Part shown: in pieces, positions 18,129 through 31,151 of the stretch | Layout: each line of letters opens with the position of its first letter | Position numbering within the stretch: the first letter of the stretch is position 1 | Source: Fibrobacter sp. | GTDB taxonomy: Bacteria > Fibrobacterota > Fibrobacteria > Fibrobacterales > Fibrobacteraceae | Length of the DNA stretch: 64,000 nt | Direction: 5' to 3' | Assembly (NCBI GenBank): GCA_017412605.1 | Contig: JAFPWY010000003.1 | Span: forward strand, 124,001-188,000 | Notes under the pieces: generated by a model | What the model was told of the DNA's origin: nothing | Databases searched by the model: none | Seen by the model: the letters and a program-made list of their open reading frames with translations, nothing else | Translations under genes and position numbers: made by a program

Positions 18129-19124
18129 ATGATGATTGTATCTTGGATGACCACCAACAAGTGTAACCTGACCTGCAAGCACTGCTACCAGGACGCGGGC
18201 GAGAACAAGGCGGCCGAACTCACGACGGCGGAAGCCCTCAAGCTGATTGACGAAATCGCGAAGGCGGGGTTCAAGATCATGATTTTCAGCGGTGGCGAGC
18301 CGATGACCCGCCCCGACATTGTGGACCTTGTTGCTCACGCCTCGAGCAAGGGCTTACGCCCGGTGTTCGGCACCAACGGCACGCTCATCACGCACGACTT
18401 GGCGTTCAAGCTCAAAGCGGCCGGGGCGATGGCGATGGGTATCAGCATCGACAGCATCGACCATGACCGTCATAACGACTTCCGAGGCCTCCCGAACGCC
18501 TTCGAACTCACGATGATGGGCATCGAGAACTGCAAGGCGGCAGGCCTCCCGTTCCAGATTCACACGACCATCATGGACTGGAACCAGAACGAGATTTTCG
18601 ACATCATGGACTGGGTCAAGGAAATTGGCGCGGTGAATCACCAGATTTTTTTCCTCATCCCCGTGGGACGCGGCAAGGAAATCGAAGGTCACGCCCTCCG
18701 CGTCGCCGAATATGAAGGTTTGCTCCGCAAGATTATGGAAAAGAGCCGTACGCTCGGCATCCCCGTCAAGCCCACCTGCGCTCCGCAGTTCCTGCGCATT
18801 GCAGACCAGTTGGATATCAAGACCCGCTATAGCCGTGGCTGCCTCGCCGGTCTTGACTACTGCATCGTGAGCCCCATCGGCAAGGTGCGCCCCTGCGCCT
18901 ACATGATGGAAGAGGCGGGCGACGTTCACGACACGCCGTTCGACGAAATCTGGACGAACGCCGAGGTGTTCAAGAATCTACGTACCAAGGCCTATGCCGG
19001 AGCCTGCGGCAAGTGCAAGTTCAACGACCGCTGCGGCGGTTGTCGCGCCCGCGCCGCCTACTATCACGACGGCGACTACATGCAGGAAGATTCCTACTGC
19101 GCCTACGGGAGAGGGATTAAGTAG
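18129..19124 (+). CDS. AhbD/NirJ2-family radical SAM/SPASM protein (heme biosynthesis type)
   Basis: A 331-residue radical SAM protein with CNLTCKHC (C12, C16, C19), FSGGEP and a SPASM end (GACGKCKFNDRCGGCRARAA). Several stretches match my memory of NirJ2 and AhbD, the enzymes that modify iron-coproporphyrin or heme d1 precursors: PVFGTNGTLITHDLA, GISIDSIDHDRHNDFRGLPN, KPTCAPQFLRIA and RGCLAGLDYCIVSPIGKVRP. AhbD decarboxylates propionates to make heme b in the siroheme-dependent pathway. The siroheme genes lie 10 kb upstream, which supports that reading; ahbA, ahbB and ahbC are not in the window. GAGG precedes the ATG. The next gene starts on its stop codon. Confidence 0.82.
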   Translation: MMIVSWMTTNKCNLTCKHCYQDAGENKAAELTTAEALKLIDEIAKAGFKIMIFSGGEPMTRPDIVDLVAHASSKGLRPVFGTNGTLITHDLAFKLKAAGAMAMGISIDSIDHDRHNDFRGLPNAFELTMMGIENCKAAGLPFQIHTTIMDWNQNEIFDIMDWVKEIGAVNHQIFFLIPVGRGKEIEGHALRVAEYEGLLRKIMEKSRTLGIPVKPTCAPQFLRIADQLDIKTRYSRGCLAGLDYCIVSPIGKVRPCAYMMEEAGDVHDTPFDEIWTNAEVFKNLRTKAYAGACGKCKFNDRCGGCRARAAYYHDGDYMQEDSYCAYGRGIK

Positions 19125-20229: not shown

Positions 20230-21060
20230 ATGAATTTTATCAAATTTTGCGCTACATCCGCAGCGCTGCTTTTGCTGTGTTCTTGTGACAAGAACGATGT
20301 CGTCCTGGCCTTCAACACCCAGGATGCCTCCTTGCGTACTTTTTATCTTGAGTCGTCCCTGAACGTACTCTTGCCCGAAGATTCCGCCAATGCTACGCCG
20401 GAGTCCATGCAATCCCATATCAAGGTGCGCAGCACGCTTAACATGCTGGTCCCTTACGATGACGGCTCCGCTCGATTCGAGATGAAGGTCGATTCCGTGG
20501 AATATACCTCGGACAAGCGGTCTGTCGAGGAATTCCGCAATATTGAAAAGCTTGTTTCCGTTCAGCATTTCCAGTTCAAGCTGGCCTCTGACGGGACAAT
20601 AAGCGATCCGGTTGTCGAAGATGCCGAAGTCAGGCTGGGGGACGATGATATCGACCTCATGAAGGTTTTCCTGAAAATCCAGCCGGTACTGCCGGCCAAG
20701 CCAGTTTCCATAGGCGAGACCTGGGAACGAATGGTGACTATACCGGGTGCCAATTCGATTACGACCGTGTACAAGTCCTTCACCCTCGAGGATGTCATGA
20801 TTCACGACGGGGCGCAAATCGCAAAGATCGGCATGAACCTCAAGTACAAGGAAGAACCGGATTCCACGTCCGACCTGCATATGGAAAGTCAGGGATTTAT
20901 CGTTGGTTCGGGCTCCATCCTTTTCGATGTTAGCCATGGGGCCGTAGCCTCTGCGAATCTTGAAATCAACGGCGACTTGAACGTCAAGGACCTTGTTGCC
21001 CAGGATTCCATCCCGAACATGCACGTCATACAGAAAATCAAGATGAGGAGTGAACCTTGA
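20230..21060 (+). CDS. Lipoprotein of the motor-like operon
   Basis: A 276-residue lipoprotein: signal peptide with lipobox LLCSC (cysteine about residue 19), then a beta-rich domain with segments such as SRSTLNMLV-like and GETWERMVTIPGANSITTVY. I do not recognise a family. It is the first gene of six packed genes leading to the MotA-like and MotB-like pair. TATATT ends six bases before the ATG with no ribosome-binding site, so translation may be leaderless. It overlaps the next gene by four bases. Confidence 0.72.
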   Translation: MNFIKFCATSAALLLLCSCDKNDVVLAFNTQDASLRTFYLESSLNVLLPEDSANATPESMQSHIKVRSTLNMLVPYDDGSARFEMKVDSVEYTSDKRSVEEFRNIEKLVSVQHFQFKLASDGTISDPVVEDAEVRLGDDDIDLMKVFLKIQPVLPAKPVSIGETWERMVTIPGANSITTVYKSFTLEDVMIHDGAQIAKIGMNLKYKEEPDSTSDLHMESQGFIVGSGSILFDVSHGAVASANLEINGDLNVKDLVAQDSIPNMHVIQKIKMRSEP

Positions 21061-21773
21061 TGCGTCGTCCGCAAACTTTATTGGCCGCTTCGCTTTTGCT
21101 TGTGGCGACGGCGATAGCAGGGGAGATGCCCTTCCCCCAGCCAGAAAAGGGTATGGTTCGTCTGCAGGCCAAGGATAGCCCCTACATCCTGGAGCAAGGC
21201 GTCGTGTTCTCTTCTACGGATACGCTCTATGTTGAACCCGGCGTGACAGTCTTCATGGGTGAATACGCCAAGATTATGCTTCGCGGTCCGGTCCGCATCC
21301 AGGGAACGCCTGAAAAACCGATTACATTCCGCAGCGCCGACTCCAGCGAAAGCTGGAACGGAATCCATTTCGTCACTAGCAGCAAGCCTTTTGAAGTGCG
21401 AAACCTTGTGATAGAAAATGCCTTCCGCAACACGGTGTTCCGCACCGATGGTATTTTCGACAAGGTCAAATTCGTCAACAACTACTATGGGCTCTGGGTG
21501 GACGAGGTCTCCCAGATGTACCTCACTGACTGTGAATTTTCGCGTAACCGCTTTGCGCTGTCGCTCCGTGCCGCCAACGTGACTGCAAACAATACGAACA
21601 TCTCCAACAATGTCTATGGCCTTTACCTGGAGGCCAAGGCCAAGTTTAACGGGGATATGGCGCTTGTCACGAACAATTTGGAAGCGGACGTCCGTAATGA
21701 ATCCGATGAGCTTGCCAACAAGGGCAAGAGGGTTCGCCGCAATATTTGGCAAAGAGTTGAGGCCCGTTTCTGA
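21057..21773 (+). CDS. Secreted right-handed beta-helix protein
   Basis: A 238-residue exported protein with a cleavable signal peptide (about residues 1-21). The body has short repeating strands typical of a parallel beta-helix (VEPGVTVFMGEYAKIML, PITFRSADSSESWNGIHF, KVKFVNNYYGLWVDEV, NISNNVYGLYLEAKAKF). Similar folds bind or cleave polysaccharide, but no catalytic motif is evident. The ATG overlaps the previous stop (ATGA); an in-frame ATG lies one codon on. Probably periplasmic or outer-membrane linked, in the motor-like operon. Confidence 0.75.
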   Translation: MMRRPQTLLAASLLLVATAIAGEMPFPQPEKGMVRLQAKDSPYILEQGVVFSSTDTLYVEPGVTVFMGEYAKIMLRGPVRIQGTPEKPITFRSADSSESWNGIHFVTSSKPFEVRNLVIENAFRNTVFRTDGIFDKVKFVNNYYGLWVDEVSQMYLTDCEFSRNRFALSLRAANVTANNTNISNNVYGLYLEAKAKFNGDMALVTNNLEADVRNESDELANKGKRVRRNIWQRVEARF

Positions 21774-21784
21774 GGTAGTGAACC

Positions 21785-22705
21785 GTGGAAGAGTCGTTCC
21801 GTCGAGCAATACGTAAGATGACCGGGACAAGCGTTCGCTTGTCTGTCCGGCCGGACAGGTCGTCCATGGTGGCGTCGCTGTCTCAGTCGATGATGGTCAC
21901 CTGGTCCATCGCGTTGTTCGAACACCTGGACGCCATGATGTCCAATGCGGAATCCATGGTCGGCGCCTCCGAGCTCATCTCTTTCAGCAAGTCCGCCTGG
22001 AAATTGGCGGATTCCAGCTTCCCGCAGATTATCCAGGATGCAAACGCGCTGTACGACGAGTTCCGCGCCAAGTGGATGCAGCGCTTCTCTACGGAAGAGG
22101 TGCTAAGGCTTCTGCTCGAAGGCGGCGACTTCTTGACGCACGACGAGGAACAGGGCTGGGCGCTCACCGTGAAGAACAACAAGCAGGACATCAGCGCCTT
22201 CTACTCTGCGACCATCCACTTGCTGGTGAGCGATGCCGAACCGCTGTTCGTCCGCATGCACGGCCGCGTGATGCAGCTGCAGGAAAAGCTCTGCAAGTAC
22301 TGGCACGGCGAAAGTGCCGTGGATGCCGTTTCCAAGCTGTTGCCCTGCCTGGAGACATCGCTCCGCGAAAAGGAGAACGCGCTGGTCCTTTCTCTCCGCA
22401 GCACGCTGAACTCGATTGCCAAGAAACGTTTCGCCGCTGCATTTATGGGCAAGGGCGCTACGCGTTACTACGCCTCCGCAGCCGGTTGCGCAAGGAATGT
22501 CGGGCGCTTCTGGAATCCGCACGGTGCGTACGAAAACGGTTTCCTCGCCTTTACCGATGATTTTTGTGATTATGCCCGTGGGCTCACCATCCAGATTATT
22601 GAATGGTATCAGAGCAAATGGGCGCTTTTCCTCCGCGGGTTCTCGCGGGGACAGTTAAACTTGTTTGAAACCCCGGCCCTCTATCAGGCCAAAACCAATT
22701 CGTAA
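21785..22705 (+). CDS. Unknown 306-residue protein of the motor-like operon
   Basis: A largely helical, soluble protein without signal peptide, starting at GTG with GAGG nine bases upstream (an alternative ATG is at 21818). It has aromatic and cysteine-containing segments (KLCKYWHGESAV, RYYASAAGCARNVGRFWNPH) but no motif I know. It ends eight bases before the MotA-like gene, so it probably acts with that complex in the cytoplasm. Confidence 0.72.
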   Translation: MEESFRRAIRKMTGTSVRLSVRPDRSSMVASLSQSMMVTWSIALFEHLDAMMSNAESMVGASELISFSKSAWKLADSSFPQIIQDANALYDEFRAKWMQRFSTEEVLRLLLEGGDFLTHDEEQGWALTVKNNKQDISAFYSATIHLLVSDAEPLFVRMHGRVMQLQEKLCKYWHGESAVDAVSKLLPCLETSLREKENALVLSLRSTLNSIAKKRFAAAFMGKGATRYYASAAGCARNVGRFWNPHGAYENGFLAFTDDFCDYARGLTIQIIEWYQSKWALFLRGFSRGQLNLFETPALYQAKTNS

Positions 22706-22713
22706 GGATATAC

Positions 22714-24483
22714 ATGAAGAACGCTTTCACTTCGATCTTGCTTCTTAGCGTCGTTGGCCTCGCTGTATTACTGGCGGGTGCATTCTATTTCGGCGCTCCG
22801 CTTTTCGGATGGATTATCATGATAGCGATTTTCGCCGTGTTCATTGTGGAACAGGCCCTGGCACTCAAGAAGCTTAGGCAGATGTCCGCCGAAAGCGAAA
22901 TCATCGATGAGTGCGAACGCCGCCGCATCTATTCGGCGAGCGGTGACGGGGTTGTCGCGGCAAGAATCCGCCTGGCAGATCGTCTGTTGAACAAGGGCGT
23001 CCGCTTGGATTCTCCGGTGGCTTTCGAGGTGCTCTCGACGGGTTCGTCCATCTCCATTCCGCGCAGTGCGAGTGGCTCCGTGATTCTCCTTGGCCTTATG
23101 GGTACGTTCTTCGGTCTCATGTACTCGGTCGCGACCGCCGGTGGCGCCATTGACAATTCTACGACGCAGGCGACTCTCGATACCATCCAGCTCTTGTTCC
23201 AGGGAATGAAGGGTATCTTCGGTACGAGCCTTTGCGGCCTGTTTGCTGCGCTTATCCTGAATGCGACACGCAGTGTGCTGATTGCTAACCGTGAAGCCTT
23301 CATGAGCCGCCTCGATTCCATGACGCTCGATATGCAGGGCTCGGTGGCCGAAGCTGGTGAAGAAAACAAGAGCGAAATCGAACGCCTTTTCCAGGTGGTG
23401 ACGAAAAACTTGAACGATGTCGTGAACTCCGTACAGGAAAGCCTTTCCGGTATTGTCAATAAGGTCGGGACGGATCTCGCTGCTGCGACACAGAGCATTT
23501 CAAGCAACATAAATACTTCGGTCGAGAAAATTTCTACAGACGTCGGCCAGTCCGTCGAAAAGCTTTCTTCCGACATGTCGAAGGCTGTGTCCGGGTTGAA
23601 CTCCATGATGGACGGCTTGGGCAAGAACCTCGGCGATTCCGTGGCGTCCTCTTTTGCTCCGATGGAAAAGAGCGTGAAGTCGCTGGCCGAATCGGTCGAT
23701 TCTATCCCGGGCAAGCTGGACGAAAAGCTCAGTGGACTCTCCGGCTCGCTGCAGACGGGCCTCGCCAGCATCGGCAACGAAGTCAAGGCCGGTCTCGAAA
23801 ACGTCACGGCCGCGGCAAGCAAGAACATTGCCGAATCCGTCACCGAACAGGTCAAGCAGTCCGGCGAACAGTGGAAGTCCTTTATGGATGCGCTTTCTGC
23901 CAAGACCGACTCCAATACGGAATACCAGAAGGAAAGCCTCGAAACGCTCAAGAACGTCGCCCTGCAAGTTGCCGAGAAGGCGCAGGCCGGTTCTGCCGAA
24001 CTCAGCCAGTCCGTTTCCGAAAAGATTTCCGCGCTCTCCACGGACATTTTGGGCGCATTCCAGAAACTCTCCGAAACCTCCGCCGTGCTGCTCGAGGCCC
24101 AGAAGGCCCTTACCGAAAGCATCGACAACCGTGTGGTCAAGGAGAAGGAAGCGACAGACGCTCTTGGCGGCAACATCGTCGAGACGGCGGAACTCATGCG
24201 AGTGAACCAGTCCGAACTGAGCGCAAATCTCGAGATGCTCCGCACGGGCCTCGAATCCATCATGGAGAAGCTGAACGGCGATACGGCCGAATGCGACGAC
24301 GAGGACAACTTTGTCGAGCACCTTAACCAGACGCTGGAAGCCTTCCACGAGCGCGCAAGCGAAGTGCTTATGGAGAATGCCGTCAAGACGCAGGAAATCC
24401 TCCTCGAGGTCATGGAACAGATGCAGCGCTTCTCCGTATCTTCCGCCCCGTCGGTTGCCCAGCAGCCTAAGGCCGAGGAATAA
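22714..24483 (+). CDS. MotA/TolQ/ExbB-like (ZorA-like) channel protein with long coiled-coil tail
   Basis: A 589-residue protein. Two N-terminal hydrophobic helices (about 6-26 and 29-49) precede the channel pair, about 118-140 (VILLGLMGTFFGLMYSVATA) and 164-190 (GIFGTSLCGLFAALILNATR). GLMGTFFGL and GTSLCGLF correspond to the conserved MotA/ExbB/ZorA channel segments. Residues 195-570 form a long Ser/Ala/Glu-rich coiled coil projecting into the cytoplasm, as in ZorA. It would form the pentameric stator around the MotB-like partner, encoded two bases downstream. No flagellar genes are present. Confidence 0.85.
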   Translation: MKNAFTSILLLSVVGLAVLLAGAFYFGAPLFGWIIMIAIFAVFIVEQALALKKLRQMSAESEIIDECERRRIYSASGDGVVAARIRLADRLLNKGVRLDSPVAFEVLSTGSSISIPRSASGSVILLGLMGTFFGLMYSVATAGGAIDNSTTQATLDTIQLLFQGMKGIFGTSLCGLFAALILNATRSVLIANREAFMSRLDSMTLDMQGSVAEAGEENKSEIERLFQVVTKNLNDVVNSVQESLSGIVNKVGTDLAAATQSISSNINTSVEKISTDVGQSVEKLSSDMSKAVSGLNSMMDGLGKNLGDSVASSFAPMEKSVKSLAESVDSIPGKLDEKLSGLSGSLQTGLASIGNEVKAGLENVTAAASKNIAESVTEQVKQSGEQWKSFMDALSAKTDSNTEYQKESLETLKNVALQVAEKAQAGSAELSQSVSEKISALSTDILGAFQKLSETSAVLLEAQKALTESIDNRVVKEKEATDALGGNIVETAELMRVNQSELSANLEMLRTGLESIMEKLNGDTAECDDEDNFVEHLNQTLEAFHERASEVLMENAVKTQEILLEVMEQMQRFSVSSAPSVAQQPKAEE

Positions 24484-24485
24484 CT

Positions 24486-25124
24486 ATGCGGTTCAAGCAA
24501 GACGAAAACCGTAATCCGTGGATGGCCTATACGGACTTGGGCGTGGCCCTCGTGTCCCTGTTCATCCTCGCTTTCGTGGCGATGGCCACTCTCAAGGAGC
24601 AAAAAGCCGAAGACCTGACGCGTACTGAAGAAGAAGTGCTCAGCTGTCAGGAGCAGATGCGCAAGATTGCGGCCGAGCGCAACGCTCTCCTGTCCAAAAG
24701 TTTGCAGACTTCCATCGAGGCGGGCCTTATCGCCCTCGAAGATGGCAAAATCCAGATCCAGGCAAGTTTCCTTTTCCCGCTGAACGGGGCGAACCTCACG
24801 CCGGAAGGTGTTAGCGTGATTCAGGGAATCAGCAAGGGCTTGCTCGACGCGCTGGATTCCAGCGATGTCATCATGGTGAGCGGCTTCACGGACGACACTC
24901 CGGTGAAGTCTTCCACATACACCAACTGGCACCTTTCATCGGAGCGCGCGGTGAACGTGGTCAAGGCGCTTGTTGCGCAGGGATTCCCCCCAGACCGCCT
25001 CTTTGCGGCCGGGTTCGGTGAACACCAGCCCAAGTATCCCAACGACAGCGAAGAACACCGTCGTCTGAACCGCCGCGTGGAAATCGGCGTTACCCCGCTC
25101 ACGAAGACCAGCTTCAAGGAATAG
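24486..25124 (+). CDS. MotB/ZorB-like OmpA-domain protein
   Basis: A 212-residue partner of the MotA-like channel. A single transmembrane helix carries the candidate proton- or sodium-carrying aspartate D17 in MAYTDLGVALVSLFILAF. After a short linker, residues 90-205 form an OmpA peptidoglycan-binding domain (VSGFTDDTPVKSSTYTNWHL, SSERAVNVVKALV, GFGEHQPKYPND, RRLNRRVEIGV). It would anchor the complex to the cell wall and couple ion flow to movement of the long MotA-like tail. Confidence 0.88.
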   Translation: MRFKQDENRNPWMAYTDLGVALVSLFILAFVAMATLKEQKAEDLTRTEEEVLSCQEQMRKIAAERNALLSKSLQTSIEAGLIALEDGKIQIQASFLFPLNGANLTPEGVSVIQGISKGLLDALDSSDVIMVSGFTDDTPVKSSTYTNWHLSSERAVNVVKALVAQGFPPDRLFAAGFGEHQPKYPNDSEEHRRLNRRVEIGVTPLTKTSFKE

Positions 25125-25127
25125 GCC

Positions 25128-25781
25128 ATGGACGAAATTGTGGCAGGACTCAAGCAGCGCGTTGACGCTATCCGCAAGACAGGCAAGGTGCCTCATTGGC
25201 GGATGGTCTACGCCGAGTACCTGTTGAACCGTGCCCAGGAATACATCGCGGTCGACCGTGAACCCGAGGCAAGGCTTGTCGCGGCGAAGATTGACCGTTG
25301 GATTGCAACGCACACTCCGCAGGCGGAAGACCATAGCATGGCTCGTCTCCAGCCCATCGAATTCTGGGATAAGGGACTCCTGTCGGACATCTCGGCACAA
25401 ATCAAGAAGACGCTTGCGGCTAAGCGCCTGCTTGTCCCCTCGACGGAACGCGATTCCATTTTGCGCCGCCTCGACGTGGTGGAGGGCTGGATTGGTGAAG
25501 GCAAGTTCCTGAAGGCGCATGACGAACTTCTCTCGTTACGTTCTGCGCTGATTGCTCGCTTGCGCCGCAGCTATCGTGCGCGACTTGCCGCAGCATCTGT
25601 CTACCAGGGAGGTTCCTTGCCTCCGGGAACGCAGATTGGCCCCTACAACGCACGCCATACACTTGAAGAAACGTTCCACATCGTCGGCGAACGCGACCCG
25701 ATTTGGGTCGAGGATTTCCTGGAAATCTACAACGAACTGTTCAAAATTGTGGAACGCCTGGTCCCGCAAGAAAAAAAGTAA
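25128..25781 (+). CDS. Unknown 217-residue helical protein of the motor-like operon
   Basis: A soluble, mostly helical protein, last of the six-gene unit, starting three bases after the MotB-like stop. Segments such as HWRMVYAEYLLNRAQEYIAV and RRLDVVEGWIGEGKFLKAHD suggest helical-hairpin repeats. No signal peptide and no family recognised. Tight packing suggests a function with the channel pair, perhaps as a cytoplasmic effector or assembly factor. Confidence 0.7.
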   Translation: MDEIVAGLKQRVDAIRKTGKVPHWRMVYAEYLLNRAQEYIAVDREPEARLVAAKIDRWIATHTPQAEDHSMARLQPIEFWDKGLLSDISAQIKKTLAAKRLLVPSTERDSILRRLDVVEGWIGEGKFLKAHDELLSLRSALIARLRRSYRARLAAASVYQGGSLPPGTQIGPYNARHTLEETFHIVGERDPIWVEDFLEIYNELFKIVERLVPQEKK

Positions 25782-28405: not shown

Positions 28406-28866
28406 GGTAAGAATAATATAGGAAACTCTTCACAAACCGGCCACAAGGCCATGTAAAAAAAGAATGCGTTTAACTTGGAGATGTCTAGATTGGAATAGAA
28501 CCGGTTGAGATATTTTTTTGTAAAAACCGGAAAGTTGCGCTTGCAGTGAAATCGCTCCCGAGCCCAGTATCTAAGCGCATCTCGCTAATTTGTTCAAGTT
28601 TACAATTGCATCGATGAATTTTTGTTTACGCTTTGGCGCGCAACGAAAAATTTTTTTCGGTGTACTTTAAGATTAAAGAGAGTAACAAATCGTTCTTTGT
28701 TCGAACAAAGGAACGAATATTGAACGGAAGTACAAATAACATAATTCCTTTGGCTTAGCCGTTTTTGTCCCCTCGACATTGCGTTCCCGAAGTATGCCCC
28801 GCCAACGGGGTAGTAAGTTCCCTTATTTTCAAAAACTTCAAATCCAATAAAACGGAGGATAAAATC
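28406..28866. other. 461-base intergenic region before the TonB-like gene
   Basis: No gene is seen. It holds the upstream regions of alr (minus) and of the TonB-like gene (plus), with a 27-base near-palindrome at 28690-28716. Confidence 0.6.
28690..28716. promoter_or_regulatory. 27-base near-palindrome
   Basis: TCGTTC-TTTGTTCG faces CGAACAAAG-GAACGA, symmetric apart from one extra G. It lacks a T-run and is 150 bases before the TonB-like gene, so a protein-binding site is the best guess. Confidence 0.4.
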
Positions 28867-29817
28867 ATGAAACCGCAAACCAAAAAACAAACAACAGAAA
28901 AGTTCATCGAGTCCCTGCTGCCGGATTCCGACAAGAGGATGTGGCGTATCGCCGGTACGTCCGTCATTGCCGCGCTTTCGGTCGGTTTCTGGGCGACTAC
29001 GTATGAACGCGTAATCGACGAGGTTGTCTTCGAAAAGACGGCGGCCGTGGAGATTGCGACAACCATGAACATCATCGAAAGAAAGGAGGAAAAGAAGCTG
29101 GAAAAGCAAGAAAAGAAAGTCGTAAAAGAAGAAATCAAACGCAAGAGGCAAGGCGGCGGTGGTAAGCGTGCTGGTAGTGGGAAACCTCGCTCTCCCGAGC
29201 AGCGGGGGATTCTCAAGATCATCGCCGCGCGGACGCAGAACGCGAATGCCGAAGTCTACAACTTGACGAACCAGAAGTTTGCGAAGGATATCGATAAGAT
29301 CCTCAAGAACGTGAACGGTTTGCAGGTGACCGGGAAGACGCAAATTGCGGCGACCCGTCATGGTAAGCTGGACGCCGGGTTCAACGAGGGCGTCGCCTCG
29401 GGCGGAAGCGGAGGAATCGGAGATGCGCTGGATGGCCTGATCAGCGGTTCTGCCGGGGCCATTTCCACCAAGACCATCGGGAAACTGAAGGCTCCTTCTG
29501 AGCGGGATATCGACGTGGGTCAGGGCAATTCCTCGCGTTCTGCTTCTGATATCATGAAGGTGGTCCGCCAGCGTACTCCGGGACTGCGTCATATCTACAA
29601 CAAGTTCCTCAAGAAAAAGCCCGGCTTCCAGGGCAAGGTCACGCTGAAGTTCACGATTGCCCCGGGCGGGGAAGTCGTCAGCATCGCGGTGGTCTCCTCT
29701 ACGACGGGCTACGCCGAATTCGACGCCGACATCAAGAATGCCGTCGGTCGGTGGACATTCAGCAAGGTCAAATCGGGGAATACCACGGTGACCATTCCCT
29801 TCACGTTCACTGAATAG
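28867..29817 (+). CDS. TonB/AgmX-like energy-transducer protein
   Basis: A 316-residue protein starting at the ATG with GGAGG upstream. One transmembrane helix (about 27-46), a lysine/glutamate-rich periplasmic rod (about 62-95), a glycine-rich linker and a C-terminal TonB/AgmX-like domain (about 228-316: RQRTPGLRHIYNKFLKKKPG, GKVTLKFTIAPGGEVVS, ending TTVTIPFTF). Such proteins couple inner-membrane ion channels to the cell envelope in transport or gliding. No exbB/exbD pair is adjacent; the MotA/MotB-like pair 4 kb upstream is the nearest channel. Confidence 0.82.
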   Translation: MKPQTKKQTTEKFIESLLPDSDKRMWRIAGTSVIAALSVGFWATTYERVIDEVVFEKTAAVEIATTMNIIERKEEKKLEKQEKKVVKEEIKRKRQGGGGKRAGSGKPRSPEQRGILKIIAARTQNANAEVYNLTNQKFAKDIDKILKNVNGLQVTGKTQIAATRHGKLDAGFNEGVASGGSGGIGDALDGLISGSAGAISTKTIGKLKAPSERDIDVGQGNSSRSASDIMKVVRQRTPGLRHIYNKFLKKKPGFQGKVTLKFTIAPGGEVVSIAVVSSTTGYAEFDADIKNAVGRWTFSKVKSGNTTVTIPFTFTE

Positions 29818-29880: not shown

Positions 29881-29966
29881 GCCTTGTGGAATAGGCCTAC
29901 GCATTTGTGGATGCAGAAAAATTATATAGATTATCTGAAACAAGAATTTCTGGTAGAGGATCGGTT

Positions 29967-31151
29967 ATGCTAAAGGCGAAACATGGGTTTTCTTTTGTTG
30001 TTGCTGCAATTTCCGTTTTGCTGCTTGTCGCTTGCGGCGATGAGGTCACTGAAATCACCGAGGTGAACGAAACGGGCATGAAAGTTATCGAAAAGGGCAA
30101 GGAAATGCCCAAGTGTACCTCGGAAAACGAGGGCGCACTTGTGTATTCGCTGGATTCTGCCACGGCGTATGCCTGCGTCAACAGGGAATGGACCTCGCTT
30201 AACGGTAAGGACGGCCAAGACGGCAAGGATGGCATTGACGGAAAGGACGGCCAAGACGGCAAGGATGGCGCCGATGGGAAGGACGGTGCGAAAGGTGAAA
30301 AGGGCGACCAAGGTGAACAAGGTAAGCAAGGGGAGAAAGGGGACCAAGGAAAACAGGGTGAACAGGGCCCGAAAGGGGACGATGGTAAGGATGGCGAAGA
30401 TGGAACAGACTGTAGCCTGGCAGACAACGGGGACGGAACTGTGTCCGTTACTTGCGGGGATTCTACGATCATGGTAAACAAGGCCATGTGCGGCATGGAA
30501 CCGTATGATCCAGCAAAACAGTTTTGCGATGTACGCGACAATAAGGTCTATAAATACGTAAAAATAGGCACGCAGACCTGGATGGCCCAGAACCTCAACT
30601 ACGCCTATACTGATGTTCCTTATAAACAAGGAAACTATACCTCTGATTCCACCAGTTGGTGCTACAATAACGACGCAAACAACTGCTCCAAGTACGGTCG
30701 CCTTTACACATGGGCGGCGGCTATGGACAGCGTGGGTACATGGAGTGCAAATAGTAAGGGCTGTGGTTATGACACAACCTGTTCTCCGACTTATCCTGTT
30801 CGCGGTGTTTGCCCAGAGGGCTGGCACTTGCCAACAGAAGAGGAATTCGAAACTTTGTTCACGGCAGTCGGCGGTCAATCAACCGCTGGCAAAATGCTCA
30901 AGTCCGCGACTGGCTGGACGGCGTATAGCGGCATCACCAACGAGGATGCCTTCGTCTTCTCCGCTCTCCCTGCCGGCTACAGGAACGGCAACGGGGATTA
31001 CAGCGACGAGGGCAACTTCGCGTACTTCTGGAGTACAGAGAACAGTAGCAACTACGCGTACTACATGGACTTGAACTACAGCTACGACGTTGCGTGCCTG
31101 AGCAGCGACAACAAGTTCGACGGTTTTTCTGTTCGTTGCCTCAAGGACTGA
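29967..31151 (+). CDS. Collagen-like FISUMP lipoprotein
   Basis: A 394-residue lipoprotein. I start at 29967 (MLKAKHGFSFVVAAISVLLL, lipobox LVAC), with AGAGGA just upstream; an upstream in-frame ATG at 29907 would spoil the signal peptide. Residues 78-147 are collagen-like Gly-X-Y triplets (GKDGQDGKDGIDGKDGQDGK and so on). A FISUMP domain follows (about 190-394: GTQTWMAQNLNYAY, GRLYTWAAAMDS, CPEGWHLPTEEEF, ending SVRCLKD). This suggests a stalk-and-head surface protein. The stop codon lies in a direct repeat. Confidence 0.9.
   Translation: MLKAKHGFSFVVAAISVLLLVACGDEVTEITEVNETGMKVIEKGKEMPKCTSENEGALVYSLDSATAYACVNREWTSLNGKDGQDGKDGIDGKDGQDGKDGADGKDGAKGEKGDQGEQGKQGEKGDQGKQGEQGPKGDDGKDGEDGTDCSLADNGDGTVSVTCGDSTIMVNKAMCGMEPYDPAKQFCDVRDNKVYKYVKIGTQTWMAQNLNYAYTDVPYKQGNYTSDSTSWCYNNDANNCSKYGRLYTWAAAMDSVGTWSANSKGCGYDTTCSPTYPVRGVCPEGWHLPTEEEFETLFTAVGGQSTAGKMLKSATGWTAYSGITNEDAFVFSALPAGYRNGNGDYSDEGNFAYFWSTENSSNYAYYMDLNYSYDVACLSSDNKFDGFSVRCLKD

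Follow-up and report, generated by a model that had tools for sequence, protein, structure and literature searches.

A divergent Zorya type III-like operon of Fibrobacter and relatives of it that lack the motor

Zorya type I (ZorABCD) and type II (ZorABE) share a ZorAB pair with a coiled-coil tail, a transmembrane aspartate and an OmpA-like peptidoglycan-binding domain, and their function requires ion flow, peptidoglycan binding and the tail (PMC11890865). Type III was defined by the authors of PADLOC as a ZorAB pair flanked by a DUF3348 protein (ZorF) and a DUF2894 protein (ZorG) (PMC8565338; also PMC11890865), and a type III system from Stenotrophomonas protected E. coli by reducing the plaquing of at least one phage (PMC8565338). 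It appears to be the least studied of the types, since the papers we found report no more than which genes it comprises and a single series of phage assays. In the annotated loci of Azoarcus, Caballeronia, Aquabacterium and Variovorax the genes follow one another on one strand as DUF3348-DUF802-OmpA-DUF2894. This F-A-B-G order recurs in 68 of 80 beta-proteobacterial loci, with 10 of the remaining 12 lying at contig ends, and 18 of 18 further proteobacterial loci carry all four genes.

Here we describe an operon in a window of 64,000 nucleotides, contig positions 124001-188000 of a 3.5-Mb genome that is 99.5% complete and whose host, judging from its Fib_succ_major proteins and its relatives, would be a Fibrobacter. 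Genes 3-4-5-6 of this operon (Table 1) occupy the F-A-B-G positions on one strand, as in Pseudomonadota. A first-pass annotation of this DNA had known of no described system with such a composition; Zorya type III, as ZorF-ZorA-ZorB-ZorG, is one (PMC8565338).

The operon and its motor pair

Six co-directional open reading frames make up the operon (20230-25781). The intergenic gaps are 2-11 bases, as small as originally reported, and of the two overlaps then listed we find a single one, between genes 1 and 2, of 1-4 bases depending on the start. The central observation of that annotation, a MotA-like long-tailed protein and a MotB/OmpA-like protein packed into a tight six-gene operon, is confirmed, and the arrangement is conserved across Fibrobacteraceae. 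The 5′ neighbor is tadA and the 3′ neighbor an unrelated lipoprotein gene; scans for promoters and terminators did not exceed what shuffled sequence yields. The match of gene 1 to PF19777 (DUF6263; 3.3e-06) is barely past the cut-off.

Table 1. Features of the operon, in window coordinates
Feature	Coordinates	Strand	Description
Gene 1	20230..21060	+	Lipoprotein, lipobox LCSC with Asp at +2, DUF6263-like
Gene 2	21057..21773	+	Secreted beta-helix protein; PF13229 7e-08; signal-like N-terminus
Gene 3	21785..22705	+	ZorF-like, probable remote DUF3348 homologue; helices throughout, plus an inserted beta-hairpin
Gene 4	22714..24483	+	ZorA-like (type 3) channel subunit, four transmembrane segments and a tail of ~390 residues, 589 aa
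Tail middle	23302..23883	+	ZorA residues 197-390, poorly conserved coiled coil
Tail tip	24154..24423	+	ZorA residues 481-570, conserved
Gene 5	24486..25124	+	ZorB-like (type 3), transmembrane helix with D17 and OmpA-like peptidoglycan-binding domain
Gene 6	25128..25781	+	ZorG-like, probable remote DUF2894 homologue, C-terminal GPYN...DPxW motif

The hydrophobic segments of gene 4 lie at residues 8-26, 27-45, 123-141 and about 164-191. Its best PADLOC model is ZorA3 (5.8e-11), and comparison with beta-proteobacterial ZorA3 by hhalign gives 7e-15. Gene 5 matches the PADLOC model ZorB3 at 2.2e-44 (149.5 bits), against 3.8e-19 (67) for ZorB1 and 1.3e-05 (23) for ZorB2; it also matches NF006547 (1.5e-42) and an OmpA domain (1e-16), and aligns with ZorB3 by hhalign at 2.7e-44. 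Searches of PDB sequences with genes 3, 4 and 6 returned nothing meaningful. Across 11 sequences the ZorA pore residues L126, G127, G130, T131, G134, F169, G170, S172 and G175 are invariant, and G127, G130, T131, F169, G170, S172 and G175 remain so from Fibrobacterota through beta-proteobacteria. W12 and D17 in the single transmembrane segment of ZorB are invariant in Fibrobacterota and their beta-proteobacterial relatives, as are R154, R192 and N195-E199 (N195-R196-R197-V198-E199) in the OmpA-like domain. Judged by these residues, genes 4 and 5 encode an ion-motor pair in which the pore residues and the ion-coupling aspartate are intact and a peptidoglycan-binding domain is present.

The tail is conserved unevenly. 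Among the ZorA proteins of Fibrobacteraceae its middle is mostly 13-26% identical to the window per 30 residues; identity reaches 66% (block 481-510) and 76% (block 541-570) in the tip, and 73% and 69% in blocks of the pore, so the tip equals the pore in conservation. The tip is also retained in the motorless relatives described below, and Fibrobacterota and beta-proteobacteria resemble each other weakly in it (P=0.016). Because the tip is conserved and is kept where the pore is lost, it is the likely docking site for ZorF and ZorG. We know of no demonstration by anyone that ZorF or ZorG binds it.

Relationship of genes 3 and 6 to ZorF and ZorG

Neither gene 3 nor gene 6 matches a model in Pfam, NCBIfam or PADLOC at curated cut-offs, and the Pfam models of DUF3348 and DUF2894, searched against the host genome, hit nothing in or around the operon. 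Because genes 3 and 6 fall below the curated cut-offs, we file the operon as a divergent variant, outside the curated definition of Zorya type III. Plain hhalign comparison of gene 3 with DUF3348 gave 0.015-0.12 over short colinear segments, a weak result on which we do not rely alone; gene 6 and DUF2894 aligned colinearly at 0.0004-0.002 with a common GPxN...xPxxxxxF. As direct comparison was weak for gene 3 and moderate for gene 6, we turned to controlled profile tests. A DUF2894 profile of 103 proteins, run against 957 Fibrobacterota ORFs, gave its two leading ranks to the f2-family orthologues of gene 6 (1.4e-4 and 9.5e-4) and the third and fifth to the orthologues from genus g7. The corresponding DUF3348 profile did not single out gene 3 among the 957.

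The reverse tests were run against 2,489 proteobacterial ORFs. With the profile of the gene 6 family, all of the first 20 positions and 45 of the first 50 went to ZorG, compared with at most 24 of 50 for 30 column-shuffled profiles (mean 5.3) and 18 for the reversed profile. With that of the gene 3 family, ZorF filled 17 of the first 20 and 39 of the first 50, with a maximum of 15 (mean 4.6) among 30 shuffles and 8 for the reversed profile. Each profile selects its own partner family and not the other one. ORFs of one family are not independent, so the shuffles rather than hypergeometric p-values are our basis; decoys from flanking genes yielded one usable family and were replaced by the shuffled and reversed profiles. 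When the Fibrobacterota profiles of genes 3 and 6 were searched reciprocally against 398 whole genomes of Pseudomonadota, no ZorF or ZorG came up at E<=0.05, just unrelated weak matches. AlphaFold models of a DUF3348 protein (pLDDT 86.7) and of gene 3 (81.1) have the same helix order, gene 3 adding its beta-hairpin, and their leading PDB matches are identical. Both models also match the dynamin stalk (Z 8.0 and 11.6), but helical bundles reach such values by chance, and we dropped this match as a functional clue, using it solely as a sign of common topology.

Taken together, these comparisons make it very probable that genes 3 and 6 are remote homologues of ZorF and ZorG. The first-pass annotation had treated them as unknown partners, a description that the shuffle-controlled tests overturn. 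The operon would accordingly share with known type III systems its four-gene order and orientation, its best models (ZorA3 and ZorB3) and, in ZorA, a long tail whose C-terminus is distinct. It differs in that its ZorF and ZorG are too divergent for the Pfam and PADLOC models, in that its tail of ~390 residues is shorter than the beta-proteobacterial one (the whole ZorA has 589 aa here and mostly 600-1100 there), and in that the Fibrobacter side has two extra envelope genes, is core and vertical in its class, and has motorless derivatives. From types I and II it departs further: its ZorB scores far lower against the ZorB1 and ZorB2 models, and no PADLOC model of ZorC, ZorD or ZorE, whose absence had been noted earlier, hits any gene of the operon or any of the nine tested around it. 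The operon would thus extend Zorya type III to Fibrobacterota, where current models miss ZorF and ZorG.

Distribution and motorless relatives

The question posed at the outset, whether the neighborhood is core or patchy in Fibrobacterota, has a clear answer for Fibrobacter: genes 3 and 5 are present in 36 of 36 sampled species, unlike the patchy occurrence of most defence systems. In the other Fibrobacteraceae genera except g7, genes 1-6 occur in order, with one locus lacking gene 2, and mostly right after tadA. Gene 3 was not found in the sample of other classes of Fibrobacterota. Within the class inheritance follows the RpoB tree: in the tree of ZorF plus ZorG, as in that of RpoB, family f3 is separate from f2, g7 and the rest of f1, the order of f2 and g7 being weakly supported. 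Kept across Fibrobacteraceae, with dN/dS of 0.02-0.09 for all six genes between close species, the operon is conserved far above chance, and the substitution ratios indicate strong purifying selection. DUF3348 occurs in 20 of 398 sampled Pseudomonadota species, and within Variovorax ZorF is carried by 59 of 61 genomes, a near-fixed state unusual for a presumed defence system. This pattern points to long retention and not to rapid gain and loss.

Twelve loci, 10 of 10 in family f3 (L080-L083, L215-L220) and two of two in genus g7 (L084, L085), have no motor. All 12 have the order zorF, a gene for an anchor protein (one or two N-terminal hydrophobic segments, a coiled coil or linker, and the tip) and zorG, and lack ZorB and the pore segments TM3-TM4. 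The ZorA remnants of g7 (L084:10519-11061, L085:8683-9312) are 180-209 residues long and consist of a transmembrane helix, a linker and the tip only, the linker being a repeated Pro-Lys-Ile-Glu-rich sequence with P-K-I-E-I/V motifs. Because the RpoB tree nests g7, with full support, between motor-bearing f2 and motor-bearing f1, the loss in g7 was independent of the state of f3. For f3, loss is the simplest explanation as well, since the full four-gene order is common to Pseudomonadota; a motorless f3 ancestor is the alternative. A MotAB-like pair in one motorless genome (G059) was considered as a relocated ZorAB and rejected, its sequence resembling a flagellar-type stator. Separation of the unknown genes from the channel pair had been named in advance as an outcome that would count against the original proposal. 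It did occur, in these 12 loci, yet zorF and zorG persist there together and the neighborhood is conserved elsewhere. Because both persist without the channel pair, we take zorF and zorG to form a unit able to outlive the motor. In the literature we searched we found no description of the core distribution or of motorless derivatives of Zorya type III; the motorless loci are natural motor-deletion variants that separate the role of the motor from that of ZorF and ZorG.

Gene 1 has orthologues upstream in 10 of 10 examined motor-bearing Fibrobacteraceae loci and also in the motorless loci of g11, a genus of f3. Gene 2 is present in nine of the 10, being absent from L071, and is missing from every motorless locus. 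Both genes are missing from proteobacterial loci and from the motorless g7 and g10. In all six g11 loci (L080-L082, L215-L217) the DUF6263-like lipoprotein gene adjoins zorF. At two of these, L080 and L081, a Ser/Thr kinase gene with TPR-like repeats precedes the motorless operon, and a convergent KaiC/RadA-like ATPase gene and a holA-like gene face it.

Possible functions of the system

On balance we favor the view that genes 3-6 represent a diverged form of Zorya type III, passed on by vertical descent and extended in Fibrobacteraceae by lipoprotein and beta-helix genes, in which the state of the motor reaches ZorF and ZorG borne on the tip. If types I and II are a guide, it would be an envelope-sensing ion motor whose state is passed through the tail to a ZorF/ZorG module. 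We picture five ZorA and two ZorB subunits forming a rotary motor in the inner membrane that is inactive at rest; upon perturbation of the envelope, by phage entry or wall damage, ZorB would grip the peptidoglycan and ions would flow. The rod-like tail might then turn or shift, and its conserved tip, carrying ZorF and ZorG, would relay the motor's state to this cytoplasmic module. ZorF and ZorG look like non-catalytic helical adaptors, and none of the operon's products is recognisable as a catalytic effector. For the two secreted proteins, from genes 1 and 2, a periplasmic role is probable, with ZorB or the wall as the target.

What such a system achieves is open to two live readings, defence and envelope upkeep. 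The operon may be Zorya type III in its usual anti-phage role, which merely happens to have reached fixation in these lineages, with ZorF and ZorG triggering or carrying out a toxic or nucleolytic step at phage entry. The best-scoring models, ZorB3 and ZorA3, fit this account, as does the reduced plaquing obtained with the Stenotrophomonas system (PMC8565338). We nonetheless rather doubt it, though it is a real possibility: the distribution is core and vertical in Fibrobacter and near fixation in Variovorax, the nine neighbors include no other clear defence gene, the operon has no nuclease or helicase, and motorless derivatives exist whereas the published model requires the motor. The first-pass annotation had preferred work at the envelope to defence. 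Its preference is neither established nor refuted: core, vertical inheritance favors housekeeping, and the phage protection that a type III system afforded E. coli (PMC8565338) speaks for defence. In its full form that proposal makes the operon a non-defence housekeeping motor of the envelope, for maintenance of the wall or outer membrane or for surface movement, with genes 1 and 2 as working parts. Core presence under strong purifying selection, a lipoprotein gene kept beside the operon even in motorless g11, and a beta-helix gene tied to motor-bearing loci speak for it; but the sequences give no pointer to movement, and genes 1 and 2 look accessory because they are missing from proteobacterial loci and from motorless g7 and g10. 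We regard it as unlikely.

A third account, that of a flagellar-type stator or an ExbBD/TolQR-type transporter motor with coincidental neighbors, draws on the general MotA/MotB-like architecture, since MotAB and PomAB stators are likewise channel pairs with an aspartate in the B-subunit helix and an OmpA domain, and generic MotB and OmpA models match gene 5. This is highly improbable and largely refuted. FliG_C was not found in the whole 99.5% complete genome, which agrees with the flagellum-independent, long-tailed ZorAB-like motor originally described, and the window's pair has a long tail and different partners. ExbBD, TolQR, GldLM and AglRQS are ion-driven, non-flagellar motors too, but their partner genes are missing here, ZorF and ZorG standing instead, and gene 4 has no match to the Pfam model MotA_ExbB. 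The ZorB3 match (2e-44), the constant company of ZorF and ZorG across phyla, the conserved order F-A-B-G and the profile tests with their controls all argue against this account.

Returning to the type III reading that we favor, because the unit of anchor, tip, ZorF and ZorG survives without the motor, we judge that this unit is where the function lies and that the motor serves as its energised regulator. More tentatively, Zorya type III may at its root be a cellular rather than a defence-island system, its core a membrane-anchored tip/ZorF/ZorG assembly workable motor-free, and ZorAB an optional regulator lost at least once, and probably twice, in Fibrobacteria. Near-fixed presence in Fibrobacter and Variovorax calls the blanket label 'defence system' into question, and a direct test becomes possible.

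Three other genes of the window deserve mention. A radical SAM protein with a SPASM-like Cys cluster (18129-19124) matches PADLOC viperin models at 2e-23, which may merely reflect the common radical SAM core. At 28765-29817 lies a gene for a TonB_C-domain protein (1.9e-07), beside which, in the part read, no ExbB/ExbD gene was seen. In a lipoprotein-like ORF at 29907-31151, collagen-like GxxGxx repeats (GKDGQDGKDG...) precede a Fib_succ_major-like C-terminal half.
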